From NCBI RefSeq assembly GCF_034259325.1, contig NZ_JAXIVS010000014.1:248001-312000 (forward strand): 64,000 bases of DNA. Reading direction: 5' to 3'. This document shows positions 50,252-51,404 of the stretch, in pieces (position 1 is the first letter of the stretch; the number at the start of each line of letters is the position of its first letter). The position numbers and the translations under genes were made by a program. The notes under the pieces are model-generated. The model searched no databases, had not been told where the DNA came from, and worked only from the letters and a program-made list of their open reading frames with translations. Source of the stretch: Hyalangium ruber (lineage in GTDB: Bacteria; Myxococcota; Myxococcia; Myxococcales; Myxococcaceae).

Positions 50252-50599
50252 ATGTCCAAGCGTTTCACCCAGATGGCTCTCGTCGCAGCCGTGGTGATGG
50301 GTACCGCAACTGTCGCGGCAGCGGGCAGTCAGCTGAACGGCGTCAAGCTCAATGGCATTTGGTTCAACGGCATCGAGATGAACGATGTGTGGCCCAACGG
50401 CATCGAGATGAACACCACCTGGCCGAACGGCTTGAAGGTGAACGGCTTGAAGTTGAACGGCGTCAAGCTCAATGGCATCCGGTTCAATGGCATCTCCCTG
50501 GGCACTGTCTCCGTGAACGCGCCTCAGACGAACAGCTCGCCCGAGTCTCGCGTCACCGCCATCACCCTGCGTGATGGCACGGTGTTGCGTGCTCCGTAG
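50252..50599 (+). CDS. Exported Asn-Gly pentad-repeat protein
   Basis: A 115-residue exported protein starting at ATG 50252 after GGAAGGAG. The signal peptide (MSKRFTQMALVAAVVMGTA) is cleaved after AAA or VAA. The mature part consists mainly of 11 uninterrupted five-residue units, x-N-G-hydrophobic-x (LNGVK, LNGIW, FNGIE, PNGLK, VNGLK), two of which have ND or NT in place of NG. The five-residue period is the same as in pentapeptide-repeat beta-helices, though the motif differs. The final 30 residues are unrelated. It overlaps the next gene, an ADYC protein, implying a functional pair. I know of no assigned function. Confidence 0.8.
   Translation: MSKRFTQMALVAAVVMGTATVAAAGSQLNGVKLNGIWFNGIEMNDVWPNGIEMNTTWPNGLKVNGLKLNGVKLNGIRFNGISLGTVSVNAPQTNSSPESRVTAITLRDGTVLRAP
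50331..50505 (+). repeat. 11 tandem 15-bp units encoding xNG(hydrophobic)x
   Basis: Eleven consecutive codon pentads in perfect 15-nt register. Codon choice varies between units (AACGGC, AATGGC), so the array is conserved at protein rather than DNA level, which argues for selection on structure. Confidence 0.8.
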
Positions 50600-51404
50600 G
50601 TCGCACCTGGGATGCCTCGCCCTGCTTGCCCTCGGCATGGCAGGGCGGGCGTCCGCCGAGGAGTCGCTGCGCGCCCTGCGGGTCGTCGGCACCGAGTTCC
50701 ATGTTGAGACCTCCAGCGGGCGCACGCTGAAGAGCCAGGACCTGGTCGGCGCGACGCTCACGGTTCAGCAGGGCCTGGCGTCCTTGAACATCCGCATCGA
50801 CGACGTCTTCCTGGATCCAAAGGATGGCGCGCGGGAGATCTGGCTCCACCAGTTGTCGGTGCAGGATGCCTCCACGGGAAACTGGCGTCCGCTCTGTGGG
50901 CAGGACCCCGAGGGCAAGCGCCTCGCGTTCCCCTTGGTTGGTGTGGTGGAGGAGGCCACGGCGACTCGGCAGCGCACGCCCGACACCGTCTTCACGCTCA
51001 CCTGCACCAGCGGCGCGGAGGGCAAGTGCGTCCGCTTTGGCTACAAGCCCTGGAAGAAGACCGCTCAGGGTGTCGACCTCTGGGACTATCACCAGGCCTG
51101 TGTTCGCCTCGTCCGCGCCGACTACTGCGGCGATGGCCAGGCGACCACGCGCGCGGGCACGTTGATCGACATCTATGACTCCATCGGCATCCAGAAGTCC
51201 GAGCCGAAGAAGGGGATGCGCTTCGAGGCGGCATGGAGTCCTCAGGGGGCGCTCTGTGTGAACCACCCCCGCGTCCCGGAGAACGTCCGTCTGGAGGCGC
51301 TGCGCAGCTGCCCTCGGCTGGCCAAGGCCGCCCTGGGCGAGGGGTGCCGCGAGGAGCACTTCACTGGCAAGAAGGAGGCGCTCCTGTTCAACAAGTCGCT
51401 CTGA
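50574..51404 (+). CDS. ADYC domain-containing exported protein
   Basis: About 275 residues with a signal peptide (LLALGMAGRASA cleaved before EES). The start may be ATG 50574, or GTG 50589 just before the upstream stop; both overlap the pentad-repeat gene, so translation is probably coupled. It carries the signature VRADYCGDG near residue 180 that names the ADYC domain, plus further cysteines (LCGQD, LTCTSG, GKCVRFGYKPW, ALCVNHPR, SCPRLA, GCREEHF) that probably form disulfides in the periplasm or outside the cell. The domain's function is not established. Confidence 0.82.
   Translation: MARCCVLRRSHLGCLALLALGMAGRASAEESLRALRVVGTEFHVETSSGRTLKSQDLVGATLTVQQGLASLNIRIDDVFLDPKDGAREIWLHQLSVQDASTGNWRPLCGQDPEGKRLAFPLVGVVEEATATRQRTPDTVFTLTCTSGAEGKCVRFGYKPWKKTAQGVDLWDYHQACVRLVRADYCGDGQATTRAGTLIDIYDSIGIQKSEPKKGMRFEAAWSPQGALCVNHPRVPENVRLEALRSCPRLAKAALGEGCREEHFTGKKEALLFNKSL

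Follow-up and report, generated by a model that had tools for sequence, protein, structure and literature searches.

An Asn-pentad repeat protein and an ADYC-domain protein as a probable exported two-part module

Two overlapping genes in the window (the whole stretch of Hyalangium ruber DNA that was analysed, 64,000 nucleotides) encode a small protein with an array of Asn pentads (P0001, the partner) and a protein with an ADYC domain (P0002). The two parts almost certainly work together, because the pair recurs in distant bacteria and many myxobacteria encode the two as a single fused protein. Judged from comparative genomics, they most likely constitute an exported two-part complex in which the partner would be docked by a conserved C-terminal hairpin; that the two genes form a single functional module of this kind, with the docked partner presenting its Asn array, is favoured here with moderate confidence. 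A full-text literature search, covering 5.39 million papers, returned no paper on the ADYC domain and no function for its Pfam family (PF20032), and the ADYC/Asn-pentad pairing appears to be undescribed.

The gene pair and its Asn-pentad array

The features of the pair were assigned as follows.

50252..50599, + strand: P0001, Asn-pentad partner protein of 115 aa, predicted to be exported (open reading frame; orthologue; Asn-register array far beyond chance)
50252..50323, + strand: predicted Sec signal peptide of P0001, residues 1-24 (by inspection: KR, hydrophobic core, AAA-G cleavage-like site)
50327..50491, + strand: eleven Asn pentads, P0001 residues 26-80 (sequence read and shuffling)
50549..50596, + strand: putative C-terminal hairpin motif RVTAITLRDGTVLRAP, P0001 residues 100-115 (common to most partners in other phyla)
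50574..50599, + strand: 26-nt overlap of the P0001 and P0002 genes (overlap length identical in the orthologous locus L012)
50574..51404, + strand: P0002, ADYC protein of 276 aa, predicted to be exported (PF20032, E = 3.5e-55; AlphaFold pLDDT 88, pTM 0.85)
50736..51275, + strand: ADYC domain, P0002 residues 55-234 (invariant Cys, K151, Y157, W160, H173, R181, D183, D202, E218, W221)

P0001 begins with a signal peptide of typical Sec type (MSKRFTQMALVAAVVMGTATVAAA; by inspection), which is followed by the eleven pentads, a short linker and the C-terminal segment. From signal peptides judged by eye, both P0001 and P0002 are probably exported. The pentads (SQLNG, VKLNG, IWFNG, IEMND, VWPNG, IEMNT, TWPNG, LKVNG, LKLNG, VKLNG and IRFNG) are uninterrupted and hold Asn in a fixed register at residues 29, 34 and so on to 79. 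A first, sequence-only reading of this DNA had described eleven perfect x-N-G-h-x units behind a signal peptide; the eleven in-register units stand, but they are not perfect, since nine are N-G, one is N-D and one is N-T. In 200,000 shuffles of mature P0001, the longest in-register Asn run was 8, and a run of more than 6 was obtained in 3 shuffles. The codons, which had been called varied, are so only in part (Asn: AAC 10, AAT 3; Gly: GGC 12, GGT 1), and repeats at the DNA level were detected with Tandem Repeats Finder (30 bp, 2.2 copies, 81 %; 15 bp, 2.5 copies, 95 %), which points to a recent duplication of part of the array.

The overlap of the array gene with an ADYC-domain gene was confirmed: P0002 is a full-length, high-scoring member of PF20032 (a score of 187.3 bits, where the cut-off is 27; the match spans positions 2-175 of the 176-position profile). 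The orthologue of P0001 (58 % identity) was found in a single other genome of the family (L012, genome G036). A DNA/RNA non-specific endonuclease gene (Endonuclease_NS, PF01223; 48797-50158) lies directly upstream of the pair and a gene for a YddG-like EamA exporter is its downstream neighbour; neither recurs as a neighbour of the pair at other loci.

Scanning against NCBIfam gave chance hits only for P0001 and nothing for P0002, and a PDB sequence search with P0001 gave no match. Several candidate roles for the array were rejected. Asn glycosylation sites (N-x-S/T) are absent from most units, T-x-T faces of the ice-binding kind do not occur in the sequence, and Lys-Asn isopeptide bonds within the array would need a Lys that other arrays do not conserve. 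A RiPP-like precursor was set aside as well: the signal peptides of the two proteins are of the ordinary Sec type, and the Pfam and NCBIfam scans revealed no family of modifying enzymes.

Recurrence, fusion and descent of the pair

Loci were gathered by ADYC sequence alone (46 loci from Cyanobacteria, Alphaproteobacteria, Burkholderiaceae, Myxococcota and an Oligoflexia MAG), and the Asn register was scored in all their ORFs of 45 codons or more, as the number of six five-residue units with Asn at a fixed position. A score of at least 4 of 6 was reached by 31 of the 363 same-strand ORFs adjacent to ADYC and by 4 of the 4359 other ORFs (Fisher p about 3e-31), so that arrays adjoining ADYC genes in other genomes, the check that the sequence-only reading had itself proposed, were indeed found. 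A score of at least 5 was obtained for 29 adjacent ORFs and for none of the others; with one locus per genus, the counts were 13 of 172 adjacent and 1 of 1821 other ORFs (p 1e-13). Eight further partners with short or degenerate arrays were recognised by eye (L053, L064, L070, L072, L075, L079, L083 and L085), as was one at L074 that lies one gene further from ADYC. Pairs are thereby present in Cyanobacteria, Alphaproteobacteria, Burkholderiaceae and Myxococcota. Among the 46 loci, no pentad neighbour was found at L076, L084, L087 and L089; two more are partnerless, namely L058, where a contig edge leaves 124 bases ahead of the ADYC match, and L069, which is masked just upstream. In the cyanobacterial loci L069, L074 and L076, the gene immediately upstream of ADYC encodes a related exported protein whose end is PEP-CTERM-like (VPEPTAIVGLLGLGVCMGISRRKQ).

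The order is inverted, with the adjacency kept, in Rhizobium, Neorhizobium, Quisquiliibacterium and two proteobacterial MAGs, where the partner follows just downstream of ADYC; the ADYC proteins of inverted order form one monophyletic clade in the ADYC tree (support 100/96). A partner profile (A4) was run through 17 whole genomes outside the family and gave matches in 16, all but one of them at the ADYC locus; the sole off-locus match (G210:C12) lies inside a 1049-aa frame. A4 was built partly from these partners, and their recovery is partly by construction, which does not hold for the absence of other matches. Clustering of neighbours outside the family gave no other recurrent partner of ADYC, beyond close relatives.

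In the myxobacterial genomes G000 (the window's own) and G036, a search with A4 also gave Asn-pentad proteins away from ADYC; those read in G000 are lipoproteins with a different domain, and the Asn pentad itself is there not exclusive to ADYC. The window's genome encodes, on other contigs (L007-L011), paralogous lipoproteins in which arrays of S-V-N-G-L or S-A-N-G-L precede a domain of some 230 aa that is rich in Cys and is not ADYC; further matches to this lipoprotein family lie at G000:C4:26258, C11:33485 and C11:77266. The Cys-rich domain is without a Pfam domain, and the two proteins scanned gave only GLTT-repeat matches on the array.

Within the window's family (Myxococcaceae; 96 genomes, 26 genera), ADYC was found in 65 genomes, in up to 11 copies each. 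At 42 of the 74 distinct family loci examined, Asn pentads lie between the signal peptide or lipobox and the ADYC domain of one and the same protein (for example NGRNLNGRNLNGRNLNG and, at L014, ANLNGANLNGSDLNGSDLNG). A short QGTxLWG motif takes their place at 29 loci and may, with less confidence, be a remnant of the pentads; of the last three loci, two hold the trans pair and L125 lacks both pentads and QGTxLWG. Nannocystis also has fused forms. Two Nannocystis genomes, G199 (L060) and G214 (L086), hold 26 and 32 ADYC matches, respectively; outside the myxobacteria there is usually one per genome.

Genes that are fused in one lineage and adjacent in others are a classical sign of parts that function as a unit, and the cis fusions of myxobacteria, set beside the adjacent genes elsewhere, argue for such a unit here. 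The proposed tight coupling of the array gene to the ADYC gene is thus borne out by recurrence in distant bacteria, survival of an inverted order, fusion in cis and near-exclusive occurrence at ADYC loci outside the myxobacteria.

Neighbours of the fused genes were searched by tblastn with Pfam-defined domains (family loci L004, L013-L041 and L090-L129). An FGE-sulfatase domain lies beside 41 of the 42 Asn-pentad fusions and 16 of the 29 QG-type proteins; nSTAND1 lies beside 18 of 42 (with short flanks) and 19 of 29, respectively, and TPR-CHAT beside 8 of the 29 QG-type proteins. The complete neighbours at L089 and L124 are Pkinase-nSTAND1 proteins, that at L089 with a C-terminal FGE domain. 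Behind the STAND domain, both have a hydrophobic, probably transmembrane segment; at L089, the FGE domain would then lie on the outer side of the membrane, as ADYC would. Such membrane-anchored kinase-STAND-FGE neighbours suggest a sensing role for the fused forms in the window's family; the link is not seen for the window pair, as kinase, nSTAND1, FGE and CHAT gave no match in its ADYC locus or in the orthologous one.

In the ADYC tree, trans and cis forms lie on separate sides (support 85/62). A trans clade of mostly alphaproteobacterial members (support 100/99) includes the window ADYC protein and its only family orthologue (G036), and both genes of the pair are found together in exactly 2 of the 96 family genomes. 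From its position among alphaproteobacterial pairs in the tree, the window pair probably arrived laterally as a unit. Related ADYC genes are carried on plasmids of Rhizobium and Neorhizobium, two of the four records being conjugative; on the one such plasmid that was looked at, the gene next to ADYC encodes a small unnamed protein.

Hairpin, ADYC domain and alternative readings

Over the partners, the common unit is N-[G/A/R/K/S]-[I/L/V]-x-x. Read across these sequences, the invariant of the family array is Asn and not Asn-Gly: in the clade of inverted order, units such as SNAIT, SNNAL, ANKLG and ANRLT keep the Asn and have lost the Gly. Arrays range from 2 to 24 units, often with 2-6. The 24 pentads (NGIEP type) are those of a Nannocystis partner (L086:3989-4738); at the start chosen for this frame no signal peptide is obvious, in contrast to most partners. 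Outside Mesorhizobium, a hairpin motif forms the C-terminus of most partners (for example DDVIGVELPNGKIITK, LQSLKVEGGQLVAVQ and ITHVVLPDGTAFAVR, to be compared with the window's RVTAITLRDGTVLRAP). When the partner hairpin was compared with the N-terminal hairpins of ADYC by PSSM and shuffling, p was at most 0.05 in 31 of 128 sequences, at differing positions and with several motif windows mis-anchored. With statistics as weak as these, the resemblance is suggestive and would fit docking by mimicry.

P0002 carries R181-A-D183-Y-C185-G186, C108, C144, C152, C176, G156-Y157-x-P159-W160, D202, E218 and W221, which are conserved in 126 aligned ADYC sequences. C108, C144, C152, C176, G156, Y157, P159, D202, E218 and W221 are invariant (126 of 126); K151, H173, R181 and D183 are nearly so. 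The four Cys and a charged/aromatic set are invariant over cis and trans forms alike, a pattern that suggests disulfides plus a functional site. The AlphaFold model of P0002 is confident, as listed above. A Foldseek search of the PDB with this model was empty at E ≤ 0.001, and the best Z from VIA-align was 3.1, with mostly partial coverage; no known fold is recognised for the modelled ADYC domain, which is not proof of a new fold. A likeness to haptoglobin in a PDB sequence search was rejected as a chance match (E = 0.83).

These observations are consistent with the following mechanism. Once exported, the two proteins would come together in the periplasm or on the cell surface, where the partner would bind ADYC through its C-terminal hairpin, which weakly resembles ADYC's own N-terminal hairpins. 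It would present its length-variable, probably flexible Asn array either to the invariant charged/aromatic ADYC site or to a third molecule. The fused form of the window's family would be wired to the membrane-anchored kinase-STAND-FGE proteins for sensing.

The invariant residues could also be read as the active site of an enzyme. The exported ADYC protein would then modify, crosslink or cut the Asn residues of the array, each unit being an independent substrate and the hairpin a recognition tag. Such a relation of enzyme and substrate fits the obligate pairing and an array in which Asn alone is constant while N+1 drifts (G, A, R, K, S) and the unit number varies; near-invariance of K151, H173, R181, D183, D202 and E218 over 126 divergent ADYC sequences is, moreover, more than a scaffold would need. 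It is nonetheless unlikely, because no catalytic fold or motif was recognised in ADYC by Pfam, NCBIfam, Foldseek or VIA-align, and because the fused forms would hold enzyme and substrate on one chain.

In the fused forms, the array follows the lipidated Cys or signal peptide and precedes the domain, a position that lends itself to a plainer account: the Asn pentads might be a flexible stalk, or an export-related low-complexity segment of many envelope proteins, which ADYC needs without forming a specific complex. The low predicted order of the array and the S-V-N-G-L arrays ahead of a different domain in the window's genome agree with this. A separate protein, however, is no stalk unless it is bound to ADYC, pentad proteins outside the myxobacteria are found genome-wide almost only beside ADYC, and a conserved C-terminal hairpin would be superfluous for a spacer, all of which makes a generic spacer distinctly improbable.

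As to the fold of the array, the sequence-only reading had predicted a beta-helix-like rod with Asn ladders or an ice-, mineral- or polymer-binding face. The AlphaFold model of P0001 has a pLDDT of 51, with most repeats below 50, and was obtained from a shallow, indel-rich alignment; the hairpin, modelled as two short strands, is the only part with a pLDDT of about 75. On this model, the array is likely to be disordered or flexible. Proteins of PF00805, which form a right-handed quadrilateral beta-helix, share the five-residue period with P0001, and its register (hydrophobic-x-hydrophobic-N-G) matches the Pfam unit. What sets Asn-pentad arrays apart from them is that every unit has Asn at i+1, that position i is held by Pro/Met/Val or Ala/Ser, that some arrays have as few as 2-5 units and that the predicted order is low. 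The pentapeptide consensus is at least eight contiguous units of [ACSVTLI][DNSKEIR][LF][STREQKVD][GDENRQK] (PMC8145042). None of the eleven contiguous pentads of P0001 fits it, Asn at i+1 being outside, and 4 of 11 fit at the other four positions. No PF00805 match was found in P0001 or its orthologue L012 up to E = 10, in a search whose HMMER filters drop most very weak matches. In relatives, PF00805 scored above the curated cut-off in the fused protein L014 (E = 1.7e-8) and the partners L082 (1e-6) and L080 (21.1 against 20.2). The repeat may thus be kin to pentapeptide repeats, or convergent on them, without qualifying as one in P0001.

A pentapeptide-repeat-type beta-helix is therefore very doubtful: for it speak these scoring relatives and the alignment of V-K-L-N-G with the L-S-G-A-N unit, by which eleven units would make nearly three coils, and against it speak the lack of a match in P0001 itself, the mostly low pLDDT, the exclusion of Asn from i+1 by the published consensus, the many arrays of 2-6 units, which are shorter than two coils of a four-sided helix, and the inward position, which needs Leu or Phe and is Pro twice in P0001 (VWPNG, TWPNG) and Ala or Ser in many rhizobial units. 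Neither the rod with Asn ladders nor the ice-, mineral- or polymer-binding face gains support from the low repeat pLDDT on a shallow alignment, the variable array length and the unmatched consensus.

Relation to known systems and significance

The nearest characterised exported pentad protein found is YjbI of Caulobacter crescentus, a secreted pentapeptide repeat protein that acts in the alphaproteobacterial envelope (PMC12864828); it is likened to the partner by description, and the paper makes no mention of ADYC. A second comparison is offered by the nSTAND1- and FGS-domain counter-invader systems (PMC8195603). Like these, the family's fused ADYC genes adjoin Pkinase-nSTAND1, FGE-sulfatase or TPR-CHAT proteins; unlike them, the window pair is without such a neighbour, and trans pairs in other phyla rarely have one.

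A wider reading is put forward tentatively, as one that is less likely than not to hold. ADYC and its partner would be an exported system that is widespread but undescribed; the fold of ADYC would be new, as would the repeat, in which Asn is the sole constant of the five-residue unit, and ADYC would recognise or chemically alter the arrayed Asn. Myxobacteria would have fused and multiplied the system (26-32 ADYC matches per Nannocystis genome) and coupled the fused forms to transmembrane kinase-STAND receptors.

For PF20032, a domain of unknown function, the pairing provides an apparently dedicated partner, from Nostoc to Rhizobium to Nannocystis, so that experiments on its function can address two genes together and not an orphan domain, and the natural fusions show structural biologists what to express. 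Selection keeps Asn at every fifth residue, which raises the question of what ADYC does with arrayed Asn. In the window's family, the fused proteins beside kinase-STAND-FGE proteins give a way to approach the question of what these receptors may detect beyond the membrane.
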